Positions 12,227 to 40,731 of a stretch of DNA of 64,000 nt are shown piece after piece. How positions within the stretch are numbered: position 1 is the first letter of the stretch; every line of letters starts with the position of its first letter. The position numbers and the translations under genes were made by a program. The notes under the pieces were generated by a model. That model saw nothing but the letters and a program-made list of their open reading frames with translations, ran no database searches and was not told the DNA's origin. This stretch comes from Aspergillus flavus (lineage: Eukaryota > Ascomycota > Eurotiomycetes > Eurotiales > Aspergillaceae), in contig NC_092406.1 in the NCBI RefSeq assembly GCF_009017415.1, forward strand, positions 5,146,001 through 5,210,000, given 5' to 3'.

Positions 12227-13937
12227 ATGAAGCTCCGACCTCATCTCCACGTCCAGCAATCCCGATCAGCCTTCGCAGAGGGAAATGCACGATGGACAAA
12301 CCTAGACCTAGACCCTGTCCCCCGCCACCTCCGACAATGGGGGCCCATTAGCTTCATTGGCATGTCTCAGAACCCTCCCAGATAGTACCAGGACTAACAT
12401 TCCACCAGCATACTGGATCTCCGACGCCTTCAACGCCGCCACCTGGCAATTCGCCAGTAGCATGATGGCCGTAGGCCTCGGCTGGAGCGACGCCGTCATC
12501 ATCGTCGCCATCTCCTTCTTCATCATCTCATTCGTCATCGCCGGAAATGGCGCCGTGGGCGCCATCTACCACGTCCCGTTCCCTGTCATCGCCCGCGCCA
12601 GCTGGGGCTTCTGGGGCTCGTACATCGCCATCGTGTCGCGGGTCATCCTGGCGCTGTTCTGGTTTGCCATTCAGAATGTTAACGGTGCTAATGCCGTGCG
12701 GGCTATGATCGGGGCTATTTGGCCTAGTTTCCTTACGTTGGAGAACCATATCCCTGAGGATCAGGGTATTACTACGAATGGGATGGTGTCGTACTTGATC
12801 TTCTGGCTGGTGCAGTTCCCGTTCCTGTGTATTCATCCGAATAAACTCCGGTGGTTGTTTATGGTGAAATCCGTGCTGGTGCCGATTGCCTGGATCGCGA
12901 TCTTTATATGGGCGTTTGTCGCCGAAAGTGGTGGAGGATTACTCCACCAGAAAGCGACGGTGTCGGGGTCGAAATACAGCTGGCTGTTTCTCGCCAATAT
13001 GACCAGTGTACTAGGGAACTATGCAACACTCAGCGTCAACCAGGTACATATCACACTCATCCCAATAGACAAGAAATACCAAACCTAACACCAAGATATC
13101 TAGTCCGACTTCTCGCGCTACTCCCGCGTCACCGCAAAATGGCAACTCCTCTACATCCCCATGCTCCCCATAATCTTCACCTTCCTCTCCTTCATCGGCA
13201 TCGTGGCCTCCAGCGCCGGCCAAGCCCGCTACGGCGGCTCCATCCCCTGGGACCCCATCGACCTAATCAGCAACTGGAGCAGTCGCGCCTGCCGATTCTT
13301 CGCCGCCTTCAGCTTCGCCCTCGCCGCCCTGGGCGTGAACATCTCCGCCAACTCCCTCTCCGCGGCTAACGACCTGACGGCCCTCGCACCGGGGTATATC
13401 AATCTCCGGCGCGGGCAGATCATCTGCGGGCTATTGTCTTGGGGCTTGGTTCCGTGGAAGATACTGGTCTCGGCGGGGAATTTTCTCAATTTCATGTCTG
13501 CTTATGCTATCTTCCTGGGGCCTATTGCGGGGATTATGTTGTTTGATTTTTGGGTGCTTAAGAAGAGGAAATATGATACTTTGGCGTTGTATCAGCGGGA
13601 GAATAGGACTTATGGGTATGGGGGTTGGGGGGTGAATTGGAGGGCTGTGGTTGCTTTTGTAGTTGGTGTTGCGCCGAACTTGCCCGGGTTGATTAATTCC
13701 GTTAATAGTGAGATTGACGTGGGTGTCGGTGTGCATCCATATCAGTTTGGATGGCTTTTGGGGTTTGTGGCGACGAGTCTTGTGTATGTTGTTGTTTCGT
13801 TAGTGTTCCCGGCTAGGGAGTCCCTGGTGGACGTGGCGGTTATGCCGGAGGAGGTTTATGATGCTAGGGAGAGGGAGGATGGGGATGGAAGTTTGGATAG
13901 TCAGGAGAAGGTGATGAGAGAGAAGGTTGAGGCTTAG
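12227..13937 (+). CDS. NCS1-family nucleobase/allantoin-type permease (Fur-like)
   Basis: Three exons, 12227-12359, 12409-13043 and 13104-13937, give 533 residues. The first intron (49 nt) starts with GC (GCATGT) and ends CAG; the second (60 nt) is GT-AG. The frame joins to FIAYWISDAFNAATWQFASS, a hallmark of fungal NCS1 transporters. About twelve hydrophobic helices follow, with conserved family stretches GNYATLSVNQSDFSRYSR and NISANSLSAANDL. This family imports uracil, allantoin, uridine or related compounds with protons across the plasma membrane. The sequence resembles the Aspergillus Fur subgroup, but the substrate cannot be fixed here. The N-terminus (RWTNLDLDPVP) and acidic C-terminal tail face the cytosol. 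Four GATA sites upstream suggest nitrogen regulation. It converges on ipi1. Confidence 0.88.
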
Positions 13938-14284
13938 GTTTGGTTTCTTTCGAGATGTATTTATTCCATTCTTGGGTATATTCGTTATTTTGTATACATG
14001 TTGCTCGATCTATTCTTTTGGTTCCAAATCATGAATACTTGTTCCTCGTGAGGTGCTGTCGTGGGAGGATACAATATCGCGGTCCTGTTTGAGCGATTTC
14101 GCTATCAGCCAAGGCGCTGGCTGTGTGGACTGGAACACTCTGCTCTCGTGCACTTCGTGGAACAGCAACCACAGCTGCCAGAATGCCCTGGATCCCACTT
14201 CGACATGACAAATGGCACATCGCAGGTCTTCCACATGGCCGTCATCACAGTACCATGTAACGTAGCATATCGTAGATAAACCAA
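13938..14284. other. Convergent 3' region between the permease and ipi1
   Basis: 347 bp between two converging stop codons. It must hold both 3' untranslated regions; no gene was recognised. The open frames here are short and antisense to each other. Confidence 0.5.
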
Positions 14285-15429
14285 TCACACCGCAATCCCC
14301 GTCCCATAAGCAACAGCCTCCTTCAACACCTTACTTGCCCCCGAACTAGCCCTCCCCATCTCACCTCCCTCCTGCCTCGCGTTCTCCAGTCCCCGCTGAA
14401 TAGCCCGCAAGAACCGATTCGAAAAGACCCGGTACCGATCCTCCCAAGTCTCATACATCTCGCCCTCCTCGTCCCGTGGCTGTCCAAACAGATTCAAATA
14501 AGCATACGGCGCCGCCGTATCAGGGACCATATGCACAGCCGTCTGACAGAGGGGAAACTCCCACCCTGCCACACCCCCAGATCCCAGCATATCCACATCC
14601 TGCGCTTCATTGGCCGGCGCGCCAATGCCCGCGTTCAAGAACTCGGCTAGAACAGTCAACACCTTCATCATTGGCTGGCCCTTGGCGCCTGATTTTCCGA
14701 ACGAGGCGCGGTTTGCAGACCACTTGGCCGATTCCTCTGTGTGCCAGCCCAGGACGGAGAGGAAGCAATTGAGTGTCTTGATCCAGCCGCCGGCGCTGGA
14801 GACCACTTCTGTGCCGGCTACATCGATGAGCCAGGAGAGGACTTCCACGGCTGAGACGCGGATGTCGGCTGCGAGATGGGTCATGCCGGCGCGGATGTAG
14901 GGGAGGAGCTGGGGGACATGGTCTCGGATGTCGGATTGTGGGAGGGCGCGGAAGAGTTTGAGGAGTTGGGTACGGACGCCCGTGTTTGCGTCGAGGATAA
15001 GAGGGAGGAGGGTGGGTAGAATGACGCTGACTGGTTGCGGGAGGGGAGAGTTGACAGGTCGCGAGCTGATGGAGGTTGTTAGGTGGGCGAGGGAGTCGCG
15101 GCGTTGGGAGTCGGATTTGGAGCTGAGGAGGGAGACGTGGTGTGTGAATTGTGTGTTCGAGGTTGGAGCATTTAAGGTTAGGGATTGTTGGTTTAGGACG
15201 ATTCCTAGAGGATTAGTTAACTAGTGATTCTTTTCTTTCTGGGTAGTGGAGATAAGGCGAACCTTTCGATTTGAAGCTGGTATCGGTGAAGTTCTCGGGC
15301 TTGCCTTTGGCTTTGCCGACTTTAAGTTTGGCTTTCTGTGTTCTGTTAGCTTATGTCTGTTTATATTGTCAGATGGCTTACTGTGAAGTCTTTCTGCTTT
15401 TCCTTCTTTTTCTTCGCGCTGGATCCCAT
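14285..15429 (-). CDS. ipi1: Pre-rRNA-processing protein Ipi1 (60S ribosome assembly)
   Basis: Three exons on the minus strand, 15429-15382, 15335-15263 and 15204-14285, separated by introns of 46 and 58 nt, give 346 residues, the usual size in Aspergillus. The N-terminus MGSSAKKKKEKQKDFTKAK is the basic start typical of Ipi1. Then come SFKSKGIVLNQQSL and HEAT/armadillo-like helices including ISSRPVNSPL, LPLILDANTGVRTQLLKL and THLAADIRVSAVEVLSWL. Ipi1 acts in the nucleus with Rix1 and Ipi3 in processing of the internal spacer of pre-60S rRNA and in pre-replication licensing in yeast (family knowledge). The gene is expected to be essential and constitutive. Its ATG lies 415 bp from the stop of the MurC-like gene, leaving room for its own promoter. 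Confidence 0.9.
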
Positions 15430-15843
15430 GGTGGATAGAGTTGTTGTGGCAGGTACAGTCGCTAACCCAATTAATTGAATTTATGCGTATATATCACTGT
15501 TTGTAGTATAACAACGCGCAGTAGAGGACCAGCTGTCCTGATATAGAGTCTCAATTGAGCGCAGGATATAATTGAAGCTGGAAATATTTGCTATCTTCAA
15601 TTATTTTTGATATCAGCACGTGATCATGTTGGCTTTGTCAGGTTGATGCCTCAGGTATGTACGTACCCCATTTAGTTCATACGATAAGCCCTATCGGAGT
15701 ATGAGTACAAGGCCTCGGCATATATAACAACCCGTCGTTTATAAGAGAAGCTTGTATTTATTCATATGGGCTACATATTACAAATAGAATATAGGGTCCT
15801 GTGAAATTGACGCCGAAAGTGGCAACCTCTGGAGCCACTTCCT
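15430..15843. other. Promoter of ipi1 and 3' end of the MurC-like gene
   Basis: 414 bp without an open frame of note. It holds the ipi1 promoter and 5' leader and the 3' untranslated part of the gene at 15844-17337. Confidence 0.5.
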
Positions 15844-17337
15844 TTATTGGTCGCCTTTCATCCTCGGGGTTCCCAGCGCTTTCAATTGACCTGCCAATGC
15901 TCGTGCCCAGAGAGTTGAGCTACGGAAGCCCATGCACACCACGAAATCACCTTCCTGCCCCAAGCGAGACACGAGCTCTGGGAGAGCAGATGGGTCGGGC
16001 ATTGAGATCGCATCCTCACGCCCGTGGGAGTGCAGGTATTGAACAAGTGTCTCCCGTGCCTCGCCCGCTGGGACTGGATCAACCTCAACCCCGTCTGCCT
16101 GGCCGATGATGATGTGTGCCGACTCTTCGAAAGCCGCCGGATATTCCTCCAGCCATGCTTCCACGTTTCTCACTACAACAGTAGGCTGGTAGACAGCAAT
16201 GACTCTGCGCGCACCCGCTTGCTTTGCCATCGTTTGTGTCGCCTTTATCTCGGCAGGGTGTGTGCCGAAATCGTCGATGATTTGGATGCCGTTTGCTTCC
16301 CCTACGTGGATGTAACGGCGATTTGTTCCCTGGAAGCTTCCCAAAGCATAACGGATGCTTTCCAGTTCAATGCCGAGCTCAAGTGCGATGGCAGTAGTGG
16401 CTAACGCGTTTTGGAGGTTATGTAATCCCAGAACGCTCAAGACTATAGATCCAACAACTCGACGAGTTCCATCCCGTCGGTCTCTGACGGACAGGACGAA
16501 GGTCGAGTCTTGCGGGTTGTATTTGACGTTCTCTGCACGGACATCTGCATCTTCTGAAACCCCATAGGTGACGATGTTGCGATCTTGAACCTCGGGGAGG
16601 ATTTTGCGAACTCCCGGATCGTCGATGCAAAGGACCGCGAGTCCATAGAATGGCACATTCCGTACGAACTGAGCAAATGTTGCTCGGGTCTTCTCCTGTG
16701 TGCCATAAAATGTTATATGGTCACTGTCAATATTCGTTACTACCGAAATCAGAGCAGGAAGCCGGACCATTGTGCCATCGCTTTCATCGGCTTCCACAAC
16801 CATCCAGTGACCGGAGCCCATGTGAGCATTGCTGCCATACTGCGTGACGACCGCACCGGATATCGTTGTCGGGGACAGCCCGCCGGCTTCTAGCATGCCC
16901 GCAACCATGCTAGTCGTCGTACTCTTGCCATGACTGCCGCTAATTGCAATGGACTTGTGATGGCGCATCAACGAGGCCAACATTTCGGATCTGTGGATGA
17001 CCGGGATCCGTCGGTCTCGAGCAGCGTCAACCTCAACATTGGTTTTGTTCTTCGTTGCCGCGGTTGATGCGACCACGAGCTTTGCAGAGCCGAGCTGGTC
17101 TTTGTCATGGCCAATAAATACTGTTGCGCCTGCGGCCCGCAATCGGACGACGTTGTCGCTTTCTTTGATATCGCTTCCTTGAACAACATATCCCAATTTC
17201 AACAGGATCAAAGCGATCGCCGACTGGCCGTGTCCTCCGATGCAAACAAAATGAATCGGGCTAATAGAGGGTGGGAACCCAGGCATGTGCGCGGAGCTCT
17301 CGTAGCGAAGAGCTTCCTTCAGGTCTGTAGAGAGCAT
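15844..17337 (-). CDS. MurC-like protein (bacterial UDP-N-acetylmuramate--L-alanine ligase homologue)
   Basis: Single exon, 497 residues from the ATG at 17337; the frame stays open 17 codons further upstream but without an ATG. All three Mur-ligase domains are present. The Rossmann start is PIHFVCIGGHGQSAIALI (about 27-44). The ATP P-loop SGSHGKSTTTS (133-143) is followed by EADESDG (182-188) and TNIDSDH (201-207), then LHNLQNA (305-311), TNRRYIHVGE (338-347) and DDFGTHP (355-361). In bacteria MurC adds L-alanine to UDP-MurNAc for cell-wall peptidoglycan. Fungi make no peptidoglycan, so the true substrate is unknown. Bacterial HHP reads THP here, and the QPHRYTR motif reads QPTVVVR, so the amino-acid or nucleotide specificity may have changed. 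The length matches bacterial MurC. Ancient transfer from bacteria, perhaps alphaproteobacteria-like, is inference. Confidence 0.85.
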   Translation of the reverse strand: MLSTDLKEALRYESSAHMPGFPPSISPIHFVCIGGHGQSAIALILLKLGYVVQGSDIKESDNVVRLRAAGATVFIGHDKDQLGSAKLVVASTAATKNKTNVEVDAARDRRIPVIHRSEMLASLMRHHKSIAISGSHGKSTTTSMVAGMLEAGGLSPTTISGAVVTQYGSNAHMGSGHWMVVEADESDGTMVRLPALISVVTNIDSDHITFYGTQEKTRATFAQFVRNVPFYGLAVLCIDDPGVRKILPEVQDRNIVTYGVSEDADVRAENVKYNPQDSTFVLSVRDRRDGTRRVVGSIVLSVLGLHNLQNALATTAIALELGIELESIRYALGSFQGTNRRYIHVGEANGIQIIDDFGTHPAEIKATQTMAKQAGARRVIAVYQPTVVVRNVEAWLEEYPAAFEESAHIIIGQADGVEVDPVPAGEARETLVQYLHSHGREDAISMPDPSALPELVSRLGQEGDFVVCMGFRSSTLWARALAGQLKALGTPRMKGDQ

Positions 17338-17827
17338 CCTGGTAAGTCTGGCGAGGGTTTGTGCTGTGAAGTCGCAACAAGTAGTCACGGAAAAGATGTC
17401 GCTTCAGCAGGATTGACAATTATCCACAAGTGACGCTAGTATAGCTAGCTGCATTTCCCTAGTCCTAGTCCATTTAGTTCGACCCACATATTCGTACTGC
17501 TCAGCATTCGGAGTAAACATCGAGGTTATTGGATTTTCGATCTGATTATGTTTACTTCAGACACAAGACATCTTCCACGCTTCTCTTACTTCGCACTCAG
17601 CATCCACACAACCTACGAAGATGATCAGACGATGTGAAGAAGAGGTGACATGACGGTGTACTAGGGCGCCAGCCCCCAAGTGGCAACACACTAAGTAATT
17701 CACAGGTCCCAATATTACGGGGTACATCTGCTTACAATGCGTGCAAAACACTGCTTAGCTTCAAGTTGCGAATGACTTCTATGAAACACAGAGCACGGTG
17801 CAGCCATATGGCCAAGAGCCGCAGTTT
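17338..17827. other. Intergenic, promoter of the MurC-like gene
   Basis: No gene was recognised. The part next to 17337 should hold the promoter of the minus-strand MurC-like gene; the rest lies beyond the 3' end of the phosphotransferase pseudogene. Confidence 0.45.
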
Positions 17828-19239
17828 TCAATCTGTCCGAGCCAGCAGCGTCTCCAACTGTTCATCGCCCGAATATCTCTCAAGAGCCTTCTGTTTCCAA
17901 TCTACCCAGTCCAACTCTGCATCTTTCTTTAAGGCATTTCTAGGCCTTGAAAAAGGCCTAGAAACCCCTCCCAGTCAGCGAAGTCATATCCGCAATAGAA
18001 CTAGAACCGATGAAGCAGGCGCCCGTTTCTCACTATTGCTGCAAGACCTTTGTTGCCTTTCTCCTCCAGTATGCTTGCAAATGTTAATTCATCCTCGCCA
18101 ATGCAGTTGACTCCATTGTAAGAATCAGCAACGGGAAGAAGCATAATAGGGGATTTAAAGGCTTCCGATATGGGTGCGGCGTAAGCCCATTCCCAGTCGA
18201 TAATACCCGTGATATTATAGTCATCATCGATAAGGATGTGGTCACCTTTGTCGTCTGCATGTCTCAAGTAGAATTGTCCGTCGTCAAACCTATGGTATGG
18301 CAAAACTTCAGAAATGCAATCTAATAGAAAGCGATGGACTAGGTATGCATCTATCTCACGTCCTGCGCAGCTTTCCCCTTTCCTAATCAACTCCAGGTTG
18401 AGTTCAATGCTAGCACGGAGATTGTCCCTAGGATTACTGCAAGGTCCGAGAAGAATCATCTGCGAGTCGTCATAGTGCGTCAGTGATTCTCGTGCGAAAG
18501 GCCCAATGTGATTAGCCCCCGGTCGGTCCAAAAACCCCATATTGTCAAAGGGAAATGATTCCAATTCAATATATATATCCGCGAGCTGGTCCATAACTTT
18601 CCCCCTTTACTCTGGAGAGGCAAGAGACCAGCGCAGTGACTTTCCCGGGAGCTTTTCCATAAGGATGTATCCGACTCCAACAAGAGTCTGCCCATGGGGA
18701 CCGTAATCGAACACCTTAGGGGCAGTGACTTTTGTCTGACTTAGAAACTGAAGAGTTGCAACTTCGCTTCGCATGATATAATCCCGCAGTTCAGGCGGTG
18801 GTGAGGTCGCGTTGAATCTCCGGATACGTGCTAACCACCGAAATCCATCATCGAAAAGGATTTCTATATGATAATTCATGCCGCCCATTACAGACGACCG
18901 TGTTGATCTGTCGTACAGAAGAGGTTACAGCGACAAGCAAGTAATACCATTGCGCAAATACCTTGCTCGAGAGAGAAGTGCAGACAGGTCGAGAGATTTC
19001 AGTAGTCTTGTGATCTCCTTTCTTTCTGCTTCTTGAGCGGCAGGATCGTATGATTCCCCATCCTTACCTCTATTGTGAGCAAAGCCATCTCTGGCCTGAA
19101 AGTGGGTGATTTTGCTTACCTGCCACGTAGGACATTCGTGATCAATATGCTTAACACAGAGATGGCGGTCACAGATGATACACCCTCCTTCTGAACGCAC
19201 AGCAGGCCTGTCACAATCTTTAAAATCACACGTCCACAT
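17828..19239 (-). pseudogene. Aminoglycoside-phosphotransferase-fold kinase with N-terminal zinc-binding segment, inactivated
   Basis: From ATG 19239 the minus strand reads in one frame to 18001 apart from stops at 18925-18927 (TAA), 18607-18609 (TAA) and 18001-18003 (TAG). Past that, a frame change near 17945 is needed to reach the tail ending in QLETLLARTD at 17828. The order of pieces matches a fungal APH-family protein. It has a Cys/His-rich start (WTCDFKDCDRPAV and ICDRHLCVKHI), YDPAAQEAERKEI, then MGGMNYHIEI and GVGYILMEKLPGKSLRWS. The catalytic region is HADDKGDHILIDDDYN plus TGIIDWEWA, the Brenner/DxD-like part of APH kinases. A 50-nt GTAAGC...AATAG stretch at 19070-19119 looks like an unspliced intron. 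The substrate is unknown. Three nonsense changes plus a frameshift make it a clear pseudogene unless the assembly is wrong. Confidence 0.8.
17937..17964. repeat. Perfect 12-bp inverted repeat with 4-nt loop
   Basis: TTTCTAGGCCTT, loop GAAA, AAGGCCTAGAAA. It lies inside the C-terminal coding part of the phosphotransferase pseudogene, at the point where the reading frame shifts. Confidence 0.9.
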
Positions 19240-20515
19240 TGTCAACTTTGTCCTGGGAAGCTAGTGAGGTGTTGTTCTACACGCGGATCAGAAGCTCTCA
19301 GACGCTCTTTGTCATGACTCGTGTGACTATAGGATACAACTTGTAAGCCACTCTCTCTGAAGGACGGCTAACACATTCAGCTTTGAGAAACCGGCTTATA
19401 CAATAGTCTTCGTAGCTCTCCTACCATACACAATTGTGTTCAATCTCCAGCACATTGCCGGTTAATCTCAAAAGGGAGATATACTCTTGAAGATTCCCTG
19501 ATCGTTAAAATGAACACAATGCACGATGTTTAAAGGTATCAGGAGATCAAGGGGCAAAAGGTGAGGCAGGGAGGATTATTTGTAGTTTTTCGACGAGTAT
19601 ATTCAAGTTACCTAGTATGTATCTATCGAGTATCCACCCTACTCTAAATATATAATTTGCGGGTGGGGTGGGTTGTTCGTGTTAGCAATTGTGGAACATG
19701 GCTATTTAAGCTTATATGCTATGACGTCAATTCATGAGGCTAGTATATCCTTATCACCCTTGTTCACGGCCTACGGGCTAGCGTTCAGATATATGACAGG
19801 GCGAGAAGCTCCACATTATTCTCAAGTGTCTTACTTAGACTCCGGAATATACAGATACTACTTGTTGACTACTCAACAAAACAATATCGTTAAAAAGCTC
19901 ATTCGACAGCTGGCTACACTTCAATGAATACAGGCTCAGACTGGATAAGTAGAATCTTGCTGTAGCATATACATACAGCGTCTATGCACGGTGACGGAAA
20001 ACACAAAGCAGAGATGCGCACTTCTGCCCGGCCCCAAGCCTTGAACAAATCAAAAACATGAACAAGAGAATCAGAAACAGTGAAGAATCAGAACTGAAAA
20101 CAAAACAAAGGCCGGGGTCCGGACAGACGCGATTGTATCAAGCATAAATCAAATCAGCCAAACAAACAGAAAGCCACAACAGAACCACAAGACAAGCTGT
20201 GTATTGTCACAGCAGAGGATCAGTCGCTGTTAAATCGCAGACTGAAACAGATCAAAGCCCGAAATAACAGAGCGAATATCCCTCGTCATGTTACCATTAA
20301 ACTAGCGTAACCAACGCATTGCACCTCCTCGTATCTCATTAAGTGCATCGCGGGCCACGTCATCCAACACCTCTCGTCTAGCGAGATTCCATTGGTTGCA
20401 GTATTCATCATCTCTATCGGTCATGGCGTAGCATCAACGGTGGGAAAATATAAGGGGGGGTTCAAGAAAGATATTAAGAAACGAGTGTAGAGAAGTAGAG
20501 AGGTAAGCGCGGCCA
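19240..20515. other. Intergenic with areA 3' untranslated region
   Basis: The several hundred bases below 20516 should be the areA 3' untranslated region. In A. nidulans the areA 3' untranslated region controls transcript stability in response to glutamine (family knowledge); no specific element could be confirmed here. The rest, 19240-19950, is AT-rich with one short open frame (19673-19927, plus) that has no recognisable motif. Confidence 0.4.
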
Positions 20516-23183
20516 TTACAGACTCATCGTCAACCACTCCCATTCCTGACTAGCCCCTTGGCCTCCGGCAATACTATGGTTCGCCGGATTGGCTGCTGCC
20601 GGTGGCATGGCGGGTGCCAGAGGCACCACCTTGGATCGGCCTCCCGCGGACTTGTTAGCCTCGTCCGTTTCCATCTCCGTGGCCTTTTCCAGCCGTCGTT
20701 GACGTTTCGGGGCAGCCTGGATCGGGTTGCGGGTCTGGCCCGTGCTAGGGGAGGCGGCTGCGGAGGGAGCTGCCTTCGGAGGAGCGGCGGCAATGGGTAC
20801 CACCCCATTCGACCGTCCCGCGGCAGCACTAAAGCCGGCGGGTGGGGATTCGGAGGAAGTCCCATTCTGAGCGCGGCTTGATGTCGGAGTCGTGACGGAT
20901 GCTTGCTGCACCGAGTTCTTGCGGGCTGTCTTCTTCGACGCACGGGAGGTCCCAACCGCCAAGCTGTTGGCACTGCTACGGTTGCGCTTTTTGATAACGT
21001 CCGTTTTCAGGGACAGAGGGCGCACGACACCGTGCAATTTCAAAAACAACCCGCAGGCATTGCACAGTGGCTGGCCCTCTGGGTTCCGACGCCACAGCGG
21101 AGTGGTTTGAGTGAAGCAGTTCGTGCAGGTGGTCGGTCCGTTGCTGCCTTGGTCGCCGTTCTTGCTGCCCCCGGGACTGGCCGGGCGGGACGGAACTGCG
21201 CTGCTCAGGGCGGACTCGGGCGGCGTATTAGGGGAGGTATGAGACGTATTGTTATTAGAGTGCATGCTTTGGCGCAACAGCTGGGCCGTATTGGGGGTGG
21301 ACGTGGTGCGGGCAATCTTCTGCCGGCGAGGGTCCTGCTCTCGGTTGCGCACCTCACTGACCGAAGCCACCGACCCATGAGTCCGACCCAAACTGCCACC
21401 GTGATTCCACTCCTCGGGGGTGTCCATCATGTCCGTGGACCCGATGGTAACATGCTTGCGATGTTGAGGGCCAAAGCCCGGCAGCGAATGGAAGGAGCCC
21501 GGGAACTGCCCATCCCACTGCATGCCCGACGAGAACCCGTCCTCGTCCCCATATTCAGTCGGCATCGCCAGACCAGCCCGCTCGGACAGCTGATGACCAT
21601 CGTCATCCTCGTTATCTGAATCGGCTCCAAATGAAAACATGGCGCCGGTATGGTGGGAGTTGCCGGTCGAGTAATTGGTGGCGTTCAACACCTGAGTGGG
21701 GTCCACATGTTGCGGCTGGGGAATGGGGTAGCTCGGCGAATGCACCGTCGACGAACTGGCCTGTTCATGGTTGTTCTGGTTGAACATATACCGAGGCTGC
21801 AGCGAAGCAGACAAGTTGGACCGATGCGAAATATAGTTCGGAATGCGGCGCTGGGTGCGCGCGTCGCCCGACGGCATATCGAAATAAACGGAATGGTCCC
21901 CGTCGTAGGTGGGCTGCGGCGTGGATGCCGTGGACTGGTAGCCTGATGGCGGTGGAGAGAAGAAATCCGTCGAGTTGAGGGACGAAGCCACCGGGGTATG
22001 CGAATAGAGGTTCGCAAACGGATGACCGGAGGCCATCGGAGACTCGCTGGGTGAGAAGGTGAATTGCGACTGGTAGGGGCCCGCGGAGGGCAAGATTGGA
22101 TCATCTCCCAGGCCGAACGTATCCAAGCCAAACGGTGCCCCGGGGGAGGTGTGGTTGTGATGATTGACCGGATGGTGGTTACCCTGATGGAAGCCAAAGG
22201 CCGAGGACGGGGCGTCCAAGGCATAATCGGGCACGCCGGAAGCGAGGTCCGGATCGTGGGCCAACATCGAGTTGGAAACGGGGGGTACCTGGGGCGAGGA
22301 TTCGGCCGGTCGCTTTCGGGTCGGCACCTGCAGTGAGAAAAATTGACGCTCGTCGATACTCGTCTTGCGCACGCGACGGGGGACGTAGCCAAATTCACTG
22401 TTCTTCCGTTGATCCTGAGCCGGATGGTGGAACGAGGCCGGCACCGGGGTAGAATCTCTCAGCTGGTCTTTCCGGGACTTGATGGGAATGGCCGCGGACG
22501 CCGTGGAGTCGGAAATCTTGACGGCACTGGGCGAGGGGTGGTCCGAAGGAGATTCGAAGGGCACGATGAAATCGTCGAGGTTCATAGGGTCGGCGGTCAG
22601 GTCGGTTGACTGAGGGTTACCGGTGGCAACGGGCGGGTCGGAAATGCGCAGTTGAGCGATACCACTGGGGCCAGCGCTACCGCGTCTCGCAGGAAACCTT
22701 CACAGACAAAAAAAATTAATGATGAGCGGGTCCAGCCGTTCCTCTACAGAGGGAGAACACCTACATGGACTGTTGAGCACGTTCCCGCTCCTTACGTTTC
22801 AAACTCATCGCCATCATCCGCCAGGTCAGGTTTTCCATACGCTCCTGGTTGGGCAACTGGGCCTTGGTCCTAGAATAGAGCTTCCATATTTGAGTCGCTA
22901 ACGGATCTTGCCTCTGCATCTCATCCGGACTGTCAATGCCGGGTCGAGGCGCACCAGACCCCCATTCAGGGAAGAGGGAGTCCTGAAGTAGGCCGTCATG
23001 GGCCTGTGAGTCGGCGGGGCTCAGAGGGGAACCGAAAGAAAAGTCATCGGACAGCTGCGAGGAGGTAGGGGGGAGGTTGTTGGAGGAGCGGTCAGCATCG
23101 GCGGACGGGTGGTGGGTGGTAAAAGTTGCGGTTTGAGTCGGTCGCACGCCCCCAGGGCCTCGCCCGAGGGTTAACCCGGACAT
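20516..23183 (-). CDS. areA: AreA, global nitrogen regulatory GATA transcription factor
   Basis: Two exons, 23183-22765 and 22697-20516, separated by a 67-nt GT-AG intron, give 866 residues. The start [19 protein letters not shown] is the conserved Aspergillus AreA N-terminus. The intron falls inside the codon for M of [12 protein letters not shown] single GATA zinc finger at about 664-688 has the fungal form CX2CX17-18CX2C ([14 protein letters not shown] then LCNAC), followed by the basic tail [11 protein letters not shown]. The protein ends EWEWLTMSL, the conserved C-terminus that contacts the co-repressor NmrA (family knowledge). The middle is Ser/Pro/Gln-rich with an acidic patch (DSDNEDDDG). 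AreA activates genes for secondary nitrogen sources when ammonium and glutamine are low, by binding HGATAR sites. It is likely autoregulated. No lesions were seen. Confidence 0.97.
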
Positions 23184-32574: not shown

Positions 32575-33768
32575 AGTAGTTCCGACAACCGCAGGCATAG
32601 CTCCAAGGAGCGAGACAGAGAGTTAGAGCCCCAAAAGGAAGGGCGCATGAATCACACACGAGTTTTTTAAACAAGAGAGTCAAATGGGTGAGATGTACTC
32701 GATCCCCAAGGCGCGCGAAGACTACTAGTAGTGACTGGAGAACGAAAGTCCACCCATGCAAAGCGCAAAAGTGCAGGGACCGAAGATCCAGACAGCAAGG
32801 GACACACCACGCGGGAATCTGGGGGCGATCGGTGAAATGTGTTGCTTTGGCTGGTGAAGTTGTGGTACGTAGACCGATTTCTCCGTTTCGCAATGTTACT
32901 CCACAGTCAATCTGCTGCGCGCAAGGCGATGCTAACCAACAACAGTCCAGAGAATGATGGGCAATCCAGAGTCGGTTTCACACGATTAGCTCGTGGTCGG
33001 GAGGAACCGCACTAAGGGTGTAAGTATTATTTTTTGGTTGTTTCGTCGTCGTCGTGGCAGTCGTCAAAGCAAGAGGGAATAGTTGTTTAGTATGTCGCAG
33101 GGTTGGTTGAGGGTAAATTGGCCCACGGGGACAAGGACCGTCTCCGCCCACGGGTCTGAAGGAGGTATTATAAAAGACAATATTAATAGGAGAGGGGGAA
33201 AAAATAATAATAATAATAGAAAATATAAAAATCCAGATCAAGTCGACAACTAAGAGTATGCCAGGGAAAGGAGAGACCTCTTCCAAAATACGTTGAAGGG
33301 TGGAAAAAGGAGAAAAGAAAGTAAGGTACCTCGTCGCAATGAAACCTTGGGCGTGAGAATAATTAAGAAGAAAACTGGAGCCAAATTGGAGAGCGATACC
33401 AATGAAAGAAAGAAAGAAAGTAAACCTGAAAGAAAGCGAGAGAGGCCCGGTGCGTAATAATCAATGAATTACCTACTTACACTTCGGGATCGAGGATCTC
33501 GGGACTTTTACTTCTTTTTCTTCCTTTTTAATTATGGAGATTAATTTTATGTTTACGATTATTATTTTATTTCGCTGGTTGGAATTTTTTATAAATTTTA
33601 TTTCAATTATTTTCTTCAAAGGATAAGTGAGAGAGGGGGCTTAGAAAGAAAGGGGGACAGGAAATTCGAAGCTACTAAAGGAGAATAAAATCAAAGAGAC
33701 TCGAAAGGTAAAATAAAATAAAATAAAATAAAAATGCAAAAAGAAAATGAGGGAAAATACGGAGTAAA

Positions 33769-33805
<37 letters not shown>

Positions 33806-34937
33806 GAAAAAAGAAAAAGAAAAAAATTTCGAGAGTGGATAACAGAGATGAGCCAAACAGGAAAGGAATCATGAACATAATCTGGACAGTGAATATACTA
33901 AAGATAATTATAGATGGGCAGAGTGAATTGAGGATGATGAATCCCTCCCCCATGGAATTACATACTGGATGGAGACCTTCCAGAATCAGACCCTGAATAA
34001 TAAAACAGCCTAAAAGAATAGCACTATGCCCTAAACTGCAGATGAAACACCTCAATCTCTCTGAATTTTTTCTTTTTTTTTTATTTAAAAAATAAAAAAC
34101 AAATCAGTCTAATGTATGTGCAAGGATGATGATGATGAATGTGATTCCTATTATTATCACTTGTTCTAATCTATATTGAACACCCTTTCCCCAGATAGAT
34201 TCCAATCCACCCACTCCGGTGACGTTGAAAGTCTTGTCAGGAACAATGATTGGAATGTGGCTGTGGAACGCCATTGGCCCTGTTGATACATTGGACCCAA
34301 GGACTCCCTTTCCTTTCTTTCTTTCAGGCTGGAATTAAAGGGTTGCCAAATCCCTCTTGTTCAGTTGTCTGATGTTGTACCCTAATACTTTGTACGATTA
34401 TGCGATTCCCTGCAATCTCCCCATGTCTACTGTCCCTAATACACCGTTCTGCGTGAGAGATATAAAACCCGTCAATATTCCATCAGGCCATCGGATATCC
34501 CCCCCCTCTCTCCCCTGACCTTCTCCAGCCACTCCAGGCGGTGGTTCGTCCCAATTCAACGCAACCATGGTCCCAGAGGCCTGTGACAGACATCTGTAAC
34601 AGGAATAGTGGGGGATGTGGGGGTTTCTTTTTCCTTCGAGTCTTCGCCAGGCATGTTTCCCCATTACTCTCCTCTCTCTCTTCCCTCCCAGTGAGTTGGT
34701 TAAGGGGCAAAGAAAAGGTTGAAAGGGTAAATAAGAAAATAAAATAAAAAACTAAAAAGGAGAATCAGAACCCATCGATGAAAGTCCAGATACCTGAAAA
34801 AGTCTACGACCTGTCAATCATGGGTAATCTTGAAGGAGTAGAAAAGATGGGGGGTAAATTGGAGCCTGACTCGGAGACATTAAATTTAACTCCCTCGTTT
34901 GGCCAGAGCCCTACCGGTTGTGATTGGTGAAGGGTTT
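32575..34937. other. Upstream region of the Zn2Cys6 gene, low complexity
   Basis: No gene was recognised. It contains GAAA repeats (33403-33420), AAAAT repeats (about 33710-33735), an ATA/AAT microsatellite near 33206-33220 and a 28-nt A tract (33774-33801). A TACGGAGTA nonamer occurs at 33758-33766. A long 5' leader of the minus-strand regulator is likely. Confidence 0.5.
33774..33801. repeat. A homopolymer, 28 nt
   Basis: Longest A run in the window, adjoining AAAAT repeats. Length in the real genome is uncertain because such runs sequence poorly. Confidence 0.9.
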
Positions 34938-38200: not shown

Positions 38201-40731
38201 GCTTAATTTCATCGCATATGGTGCAGATTTAGAGCTTCGGTGAGGTCTCCACTCGGAGGGGCCGTATCCAGCATGCCTGGTCCATGAGCGAAGGTCCCCG
38301 TCGCGGTGGGACTATCGGGTATATTCCCTGGTTGACTGCCGGGGATATCTGTCGGTGAGATTAATACTGGTTGTTTTATTGCGCAGCGGAGCGAAGCAAG
38401 CGTTATTGGAGTGTTGACACCTTGATCTATTTCGGTCGCCGACAGCTACTCACTACTACATACGACCAAATCGTTACTAGTTAAGTGTAACTGGGCAGCC
38501 TTATCAGTTTACTTGCGAGGGTTTGACTAATAGTATATTGATGAGAAGTCATAGCGACGATGAGAAAGTCTACGCGACTCTATTCGGACCCTCAGGGATT
38601 CATGAGTCCTTCGTCTCCAGTACACGTACACGCAACGTACAATGTGAATATGAAAACACCTATCTCAAACTACAAAAGAACAACTACACCCGGATAAGAA
38701 ACGGATCAGACACCTGAACGAAATCCAGCTCTTACAAATTTTGTTGCTCTTGTTTGTGTGTTGTGGGACGGCGAAATCAGTCTGCCTGATTAGGCATCTC
38801 CGTTCGTGCAGAACGCCCCCCTATCAGTATCCACTCGGTCTGTACGGCATACCTGGATGCAAGACATTGTCTAGACAAGGCTGTCTACTTTCTGCACTAG
38901 GAAAGAATAATTGGAGGTAAGTTGGTTATACTTATGTCCTGGCCCTGTGAACTGGGAACACTATCATTTAAAAATCATTTAGGGACTGTCTCCAAGGATG
39001 GGATAGCATGACTACAATGCGCTTATTCCCAGCTACTTTCTGAAGACGGAACCTTGTCCTATTTGAATTGCCAGGGTAGATGTATAACGACTCCAGCCTC
39101 TTCACGAATACCAGGGAAACAAAGAATAAGTGTCAGTCCAATGACTGAAGATATTAGTTATCCCAGATACCGAGCTCTATGTGTATCAAAACCGTTGAAC
39201 TTACAATAGCTTCATGACAGTACACGATCAGTTCTACAATTGGCAGAGTATACCAACATTTCCATCTCCAACTCGGAGGGTCGAACACTAACACAAGCAC
39301 CACACCAGATCATTCATACCTGCTGATACTAACATCCTTATACTTCAACCAGACTAAACACTACCACCCCCTCATTCTTATGCGAAATATCAAGGATAAC
39401 CTACAACTTGCCTAGATATACGACTCCTATCAGTCTCAACCGTAACGAGAACACAAACACCCATCACAGATAAACCACCTTCCCATTCCAGTCTCTCCCT
39501 TATCTACCACAGAGATCAGAACCAGCATTCTCACAAGAACAAGATACTCACTCAACCAAAAACCACAACAATAACCCCTTCCAACACCCCATATACTCCA
39601 ACTACACAAAACACACAAAGAAACCAAGCAAAGCAACACCAACCCCCCAAATAAAACCAAACTAACCCACACCTTAATCACACCCCCACCACCAAAAACC
39701 ACCAAGGTACAAAAAGAAACCAAGCAACAACAGCACCAATAACCATATCAGGCTAACCCCCTCCACAACCTAGACCCAAACCTAAACCCACACTGTTAAA
39801 CCAAAACCAAAACCAAAACCAAAACCAAAATCAAACTAAACCCAAAAGCAAAAACAAAAGCAAAAGCCACGTAAAGAGCCAAACCCAAACACAAACTCAA
39901 AAACCCCGTAGCGCGAGTCCAGAATCCTTCGTCGTTTCACCATGGCCGGGCACTTGACTCGATTCGGGTATGCTCTGCGTTTCAATGAATGCATGAGGAC
40001 TATAGAGGCTAGAGTAGTGGGGGGTTATGTCTTGGGGGTGCACTGAGACTAGGATGAGGAGTTTCTTGGGTTGTGATTTGAAGAAGGTGGTGTGTTTGGT
40101 TTAGTTTGGGTTTAGTTTCGGGAGGTGGTTACCTCTTTACTAGCCGAGATTTTTGTTTCTTCTTTCTTGAGAAGAAATGTAGGATGGATGCTGGTTGTTA
40201 TTGGGTTTGGTGTTTGGAGATTGGAGTTTGGGTATTGATTGGGGTTTGGAGGTGGTTCTTCTTTCTTGGTTTGAGATTTGGGTAGTAAGTAGTAAGTACT
40301 AATTAGAAGTATGTATATCGGAATTATATGGGGTTTGGGAGTGATTGGGTGCGGCGGTAGTAGAAACATGTATACTTTAGCTGGAGGTTTACTTACTACT
40401 CCGTATACCTCGCTTGTGTGATCAGATGGAATAATATGTGATCTATTGGCTTTTTGTATATTTTGATTGAGGTTTCTTTTATATTCTTTACTTGTGACTG
40501 TTTTACATTCTGTGAGGGATCCTTGGTAGAGGTTGTTTCATGGTAGACTTGATACTCTGCACTCTGCGTGGGATGCATTTCAATCAATCCTTTGGTAGAA
40601 GAGAAAAATACATAAATAAACTCTTATTATAATACCCATATATATAACCTACTCCAATCCAAATAATACCCCTCACCCTTTACTATAGCACTCCCAACTA
40701 CAGCATTAACTCACCAACGGATAAACGCTTA
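35223..40731. other. 5.5-kb region without a recognised gene
   Basis: Short open frames only, none with family resemblance. A perfect inverted repeat ACGGAGTTCTCCGT lies at 37316-37329, an ACCAAA tandem repeat at 39799-39832 and a TACTCCGTA nonamer at 40397-40405. The stretch 39400-39920 is strikingly A/C-rich on the plus strand. No transposon ends or tRNA were seen. Confidence 0.45.
39799..39832. repeat. ACCAAA tandem repeat
   Basis: About five consecutive copies of the hexamer AACCAA/ACCAAA followed by degenerate AAAGCA-type units to about 39868, in an A/C-rich stretch. Confidence 0.85.

Follow-up and report, generated by a model that had tools for sequence, protein, structure and literature searches.

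A murC-like gene is located at 15844..17337 on the reverse strand of a 64,000-nucleotide stretch of the Aspergillus flavus genome. This stretch, referred to here as the window, spans positions 5,146,001-5,210,000 of a 6.5 Mb contig, and the genome comprises 37.7 Mb in 8 contigs. The original prediction, made from the letters of the window alone, had described a lone MurC; full-length genes for MurA (contig C5) and MurB (contig C2) have now been identified in the same genome. It is fairly probable, on the sequence evidence given below, that this MurC, of Acetobacteraceae-related origin, catalyses the third step of a uridine diphosphate (UDP)-muramic-acid pathway assembled by horizontal transfer and attaches an amine that is not L-alanine. 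UDP-N-acetylmuramic acid (UDP-MurNAc) is considered to be restricted to bacteria and to the plastids and symbionts that descend from them, and fungi are without a peptidoglycan cell wall.

The murC Gene and Its Product

The murC-like coding sequence forms one open frame of 497 residues without introns, as seen from the open reading frame translation, profile matches and a predicted structure. Its product passes the curated murC equivalog model (381.5 bits against a cut-off of 335.1) and matches all three Pfam Mur domains. The best structural match of the predicted model is MurC of Haemophilus influenzae. An intact, intronless 497-residue MurC homologue amid ordinary fungal genes, as first described, is thus confirmed by the single frame, the murC model and the families of the flanking genes.

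Three motifs were located on the reverse strand by motif and alignment. The P-loop GSHGKSTTT (residues 134-142; 16912..16938) forms the ATP site, EADESDG (residues 182-188; 16774..16794) contains the invariant Glu182, which presumably has a role in Mg binding, and GLHNLQNA (residues 304-311; 16405..16428) contains the invariant Asn307 and Asn310. The residues Lys138, Glu182, His207, Asn307, Asn310 and Arg341, which we take to be the catalytic set, are invariant across the 18 rows of alignment A1. A 17-residue N-terminal extension (17287..17337, reverse strand) precedes Met18, at which the bacterial rows of this alignment start. The extension is present in 9 of the 11 fungal rows, being absent from P0007 and P0010, and has a low predicted local distance difference test (pLDDT) score in the structural model.

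Two other identities were examined and rejected. The score for murein peptide ligase (Mpl) was 161.1 bits, below the equivalog cut-off of 388.7. Folylpolyglutamate synthase, a kinship that the original prediction had named as one that would refute it, is not among the 23 families matched by the protein at E 0.01; FolC is encoded by a separate gene (L002) of the same genome.

MurA and MurB in the Same Genome

MurA, MurB and further Mur genes were sought by a profile search of the whole genome, exon by exon, in which split genes may be missed. The enzyme encoded on contig C5 is a stand-alone enolpyruvyl transferase of 420 residues counted from ATG, which scores 466.3 bits with the MurA model TIGR01072 (cut-off 392.7). 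The other 5-enolpyruvylshikimate-3-phosphate (EPSP)-synthase domain of the genome sits in a 1,602-residue frame of the AROM type. On contig C2, the MurB domain lies at 77,673-78,035 in a protein of 344 residues counted from ATG, with 372.4 bits for NF000755 (cut-off 277) and 225.5 bits for TIGR00179 (cut-off 144.5). Residues were checked with site numbers that we take to be those of MurA (including Cys115) and MurB (Ser229, Glu325, Arg159 and Tyr190). MurA keeps all nine sites (Lys22, Asn23, Cys115, Arg120, Asp305, Arg331, Asp369, Arg371 and Arg397) and MurB keeps all six, including the four just named. The frames of MurA, MurB and MurC are all intact.

No MurD, MurE or MurF was found in this exon-by-exon search, which may miss split genes; PF08245 matched MurC and FolC, and PF02875 matched MurC only. 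The same search, with the same limit, gave no match to the transglycosylase family PF00912. Two D-Ala-D-Ala-ligase-like ATP-grasp genes, L012 (C4:3449096) and L013 (C3:4765486), scored 67.5 and 54.6 of 243 bits, respectively, far under the Ddl cut-offs. A strong match (258.5 bits) to the anhydro-MurNAc kinase family AnmK was detected at G000:C8:2624743-2625783. In fungi the AnmK family includes levoglucosan kinase, and this match therefore need not belong to a muramic-acid pathway.

Altered Amino-acid Pocket of MurC

A structural study (PMC3060825) names five MurC residues that are presumed to contact the amino acid substrate: His376, Arg377, Arg380, Tyr346 and His348 in H. influenzae numbering. 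None of the 44 non-fungal rows departs from these five, bar one unreadable letter at Tyr346, with the metagenome row P0011 counted apart. The A. flavus enzyme has Phe, Thr, Thr, Val and Arg at Tyr346, His348, His376, Arg377 and Arg380, respectively, and hence differs at four of the five. The bacterial motif DDYGHHP is represented by DDFGTHP (residues 355-361; 16255..16275, reverse strand), in which Tyr346 is replaced by Phe and His348 by Thr as part of the altered pocket. In the pocket alignment, QPHRYSR corresponds to QPTVVVR (residues 384-390; 16168..16188, reverse strand), with His376 replaced by Thr, Arg377 by Val and Arg380 kept. Replacement of His376 extends to all 12 fungal rows and that of His348 to all 11 alignable ones, P0012 being disordered there.

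The domains of the protein have diverged to different degrees. Against three Acetobacteraceae MurCs, identity averages 58% in the N-terminal, 53% in the middle and 38% in the C-terminal domain; one alphaproteobacterial MurC pair, used as a yardstick, gave 75, 67 and 65%, respectively. The C-terminal amine-binding domain is the most diverged, and divergence in the N-terminal domain, which binds UDP-MurNAc, does not exceed that in the ATP domain. Among five close fungal MurCs 77 sites vary, and 7 of these fall on conserved sites as against 20.7 expected (p 3e-5), where the conserved sites are 133 in number and were defined from 45 non-fungal rows (the 44 plus P0011). A stricter conservation threshold gave 6 against 16.3 expected (p 6e-4). 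From these patterns, the fungal MurC appears as a constrained protein with a remade amine end.

The original prediction had also proposed a different substrate, perhaps another carboxylate. The pocket and the C-terminal domain make a change of substrate probable, but the carboxylate is less likely to have changed than the amine, because MurA and MurB are present and the genome can probably provide UDP-MurNAc itself. Alternatively, the enzyme may be an ordinary MurC that makes UDP-MurNAc-L-Ala, for example for a muramyl-alanine compound or a bacterial partner. A score above the murC equivalog cut-off and the retention of Arg380 and the catalytic residues speak for such an enzyme, but it appears rather unlikely in view of the four replaced residues of a pocket conserved in the non-fungal rows, the strong divergence of the C-terminal domain, and a genome in which the exon-by-exon search found no other Mur ligase bar the FolC homologue and no transglycosylase-family protein.

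Probable Bacterial Origins of the mur Genes

Fungal MurC forms one clade of 12 rows (two without organism name) with support of 100/100, to which P0011 is sister. P0011, the nearest outgroup, is a protein of 472 residues from a metagenome contig of 8,695 bases, with 54% identity to fungal MurC and up to 62% to Acetobacteraceae MurC. At E 1e-60 it is matched by 284 of 299 Acetobacter-family genomes, with two matches in G200, G212 and G284 and one in the rest. The fungal MurCs and P0011 join the Acetobacteraceae inside the Alphaproteobacteria with support of 100/99.6, in a tree that took in row L026 and four further rows. A clade of fungi, P0011 and Acetobacteraceae without L026 had p 0.0017 against it, and the corresponding tree places L026 within that group. 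The transfer from bacteria that had been suspected is borne out by this nesting of a single fungal clade among bacteria. All of the 86 plasmid records retrieved were below 60% identity to this MurC.

The MurA and MurB trees, which have no outgroup root, gave a different grouping. The 20 fungal MurA rows (5 without organism name) form a single clade (100/100), and their grouping with three sampled Acetobacteraceae was rejected by the approximately unbiased (AU) test (p 4.5e-12). Fungal MurB is likewise one clade (18 rows, 98/100; 15 rows, 93/100 in a wider set), for which the Acetobacteraceae grouping was rejected at an AU p of 1.9e-5. It resembles the long MurB type, and among the matches listed 12 of the 13 taxon-named bacterial MurBs are from Bacteroidota. 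A Pseudomonas MurB shows 38% identity over almost the full length of the fungal protein; three Acetobacteraceae MurBs gave partial matches only, at 26-30%. The fungal clades of all three enzymes consist mostly of Aspergillus and Penicillium. One MurA homologue (39%) was detected in a viral collection, L105 on IMG/VR contig IMGVR_UViG_648276684_000008.

A single Acetobacteraceae-like donor for all three genes was rejected by the AU tests, in which three Acetobacteraceae genomes were sampled. Because the Acetobacteraceae grouping holds for MurC and is rejected for MurA and MurB, at least two sources are indicated, barring an unsampled donor with a mosaic set of mur genes, which is possible. The trees thus point to more than one bacterial source of the mur set as the likely case.

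Distribution and Linkage in Other Moulds

Relatives of MurC, MurA and MurB were taken from the best 120 matches per listing. Among these matches, Aspergillus minisclerotigenes (99%) and A. transmontanensis (97%) have the nearest MurCs, followed by A. terreus (95%) and Penicillium lagena (89%); P. herquei, P. angulare, P. cosmopolitanum, P. olsonii and P. malachiteum are also represented. P0001, the nearest MurC, belongs to a 90%-identity cluster with 25 member sequences. MurA of this genome is 100% identical (rounded) to an A. flavus protein and 82% to that of A. pseudotamarii among the matches listed, which cover more species than those of MurC, including section Fumigati and A. nanangensis. 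The species range of MurB resembles that of MurA, with Hirsutella minnesotensis also among the matches listed.

Linkage in other moulds was deduced from equal sizes of the longest contig, taken as the same contig, and from locus tags. Nineteen contigs are common to two or three mur genes; two of them carry all three, and one is 2,917 bases long. A contig is shared with MurA by 15 of 38 MurB rows, and with MurA or MurB by 6 of 12 MurC rows (P0011 counted in). Consecutive locus tags agree with linkage in P. angulare (N7456_012934/012935), P. malachiteum (N7483_011948/011949), A. hiratsukae (CNMCM5793_004029/004030) and P. chermesinum (N7468_009305/009306). In A. terreus, a single gene model covers MurB and MurC.

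The DNA upstream of murC (17371..17495, reverse strand) contains two short tblastn matches to this A. terreus murB-murC model, one identical at 11 of 12 residues and the other at all 11. The matches, at 17495-17460 and 17403-17371, correspond to model residues beyond the MurB domain and are best read as intergenic DNA in common with A. terreus murB-murC. They suggest descent from a murB-murC locus, with murB since gone here. Aspergillus pseudotamarii is presumably a member of section Flavi, as we assign A. flavus, and A. terreus of another section. Since MurC is 95% identical to that of A. terreus and MurA only 82% to that of the same-section A. pseudotamarii, the murC copy in the window is probably a later arrival from the murB-murC locus of another mould. 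The bacterial transfer predates the split of the fungal MurC copies.

Proposed Pathway

In the proposed pathway, MurA would transfer enolpyruvate onto UDP-N-acetylglucosamine (UDP-GlcNAc) and MurB would reduce UDP-GlcNAc-enolpyruvate to UDP-MurNAc. These first two steps are proposed because the enzymes are well conserved. MurC would then activate the lactyl carboxylate with ATP and join an amine other than L-alanine, giving a UDP-MurNAc-amide. The pathway probably ends in a small muramic-acid metabolite, rather than a cell-wall polymer, because no polymer-making step was found in the exon-by-exon search. The sequential action of MurA, MurB and MurC, the non-L-alanine amine and the metabolite end product are all inferred from sequence. 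The fuller proposal is about evenly balanced between right and wrong: a group of moulds would make a muramic-acid metabolite via a UDP-MurNAc pathway that was combined within fungi from genes of at least two bacterial sources, with MurC as amide synthetase for a new amine, and the product would perhaps be a false cell-wall precursor or a signal acting on bacteria.

Several observations weigh against this pathway. In A. flavus, each of the three genes sits on a contig of its own, and they do not form a cluster. Section Fumigati (P0153-P0160 and P0262-P0274; section as we assign it) has MurA and MurB and no MurC among the best 120 matches; UDP-MurNAc may have a different fate there. Within the pocket, half of the 12 fungal rows have Arg in the Arg377 column, at which the alignment is gapped and uncertain, and Arg380, kept in the A. 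flavus MurC, is kept in 4 fungal rows, Lys in 1 and lost in 7. The nearest outgroup P0011 is already off the bacterial pocket, with Phe, His, Ala, Thr and Arg at Tyr346, His348, His376, Arg377 and Arg380, respectively. Other moulds carry MurA with a gap at Arg120 (P0125), Asp305 to Asn (P0143), Arg331 to Gln (P0124) or Asp369 to Gly (P0126), and MurB with Arg159 to His (P0245), Ser229 to Asn (P0252) or Tyr190 to Asn (P0253 and P0258). The C-terminal regions of MurC rows P0009 and P0012 are disordered.

The separation of the three genes in this genome and the moulds with MurA and MurB and no MurC among the best 120 would suit a MurC that works by itself on a different carboxylate and has no link to MurA and MurB, each of which would have its own use. 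This is unlikely, given the two contigs shared by all three genes, the half of the MurC rows that share a contig with MurA or MurB, and an N-terminal UDP-MurNAc-binding domain that, unlike the C-terminal domain, has diverged no more than the ATP domain. The damaged or changed copies in several species indicate that the pathway is dispensable. Together with the patchy distribution, they would fit transferred genes that are neutral and being lost, but the three intact frames here, the avoidance of conserved sites by MurC substitutions and the 25 members of the P0001 cluster render a mere relic decidedly unlikely.

Genomic Context of murC

The genes flanking murC are of ordinary fungal families, and those described here are on the reverse strand. 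An open frame for an Ipi1-type 60S maturation factor is located at 14288..15220 (Pfam match within 14288-14884), and a GATA zinc-finger protein is encoded at 20519..22699. Two open reading frame pieces with weak similarity to APH-type kinases at 18004..18888 scored 19.6 and 20.0 of 23.2 bits, under the Pfam cut-off, and represent a broken or an intron-split gene; a family search with a slightly longer frame, 18004-18606, gave none. No repeats of at least 20 bases were found across window positions 13900-20600. Tandem repeats, A-rich and AAACCA, occur at 33710-33824 and 39798-39865.

Bacterial contamination, which the original prediction had named as a finding that would refute it, or mis-assembly is scarcely conceivable as the source of murC. 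No point in its support was found, and it was rejected on the basis of the 6.5 Mb contig, the ordinary fungal flanks and the copies with 95-99% identity from three other Aspergillus species among the matches listed.

Ten open reading frames near each of the other two genes were picked by length. Those near MurA comprise a GH3 enzyme, a profilin-like piece, a FAD-binding protein, a fungal transcription factor, DUF3431, an APH-type kinase and four without match. Those near MurB comprise an alpha/beta hydrolase, carboxylesterase pieces (below cut-off), DUF3425, an SDR enzyme, a histidine kinase, Sua5-type and Sde182-type proteins and two without match. No common theme was seen among these ten open reading frames per locus.

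Significance and Comparison with Known Systems

No description of a fungal MurA-MurB-MurC set was found among the papers listed from the open-licence PubMed Central literature. A Gene Ontology term for MurB activity occurs once in a strain-comparison table in the available part of PMC6028093, and no mur gene is among the 15 horizontal transfers in Penicillium in the available part of PMC9893605. If moulds encode the whole of UDP-MurNAc synthesis, the rule of bacterial specificity would be broken, with consequences for muramic acid as a marker of bacteria. A new class of fungal compound would be conceivable, and a multi-step pathway would have been gathered in eukaryotes through separate transfers. 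The altered pocket of MurC yields a clear prediction.

Nuclear mur genes are also known from insects with endosymbionts, in which bacterial mur genes are kept in a eukaryotic nucleus and are thought to serve the symbiont cell wall. The mould genes likewise are bacterial mur genes in a eukaryotic nucleus, but only MurA, MurB and MurC were found in the mould, with nothing pointing to a symbiont. FolC (folylpolyglutamate/dihydrofolate synthase) has the Mur ligase middle domain in common with the fungal MurC, and the two are encoded by different genes of this genome. In comparison with H. influenzae MurC (PDB 1p3d), the fungal enzyme has a 17-residue N-terminal extension and replacements at Tyr346, His348, His376 and Arg377, and no MurD, MurE or MurF to follow it was found in the exon-by-exon search. 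Mpl (PDB 3hn7 and 3eag) joins a group other than free L-alanine to UDP-MurNAc and has a different C-terminal domain, according to the available text of PMC3060825. The fungal MurC would resemble Mpl in using an acceptor other than free L-alanine, as is proposed here.
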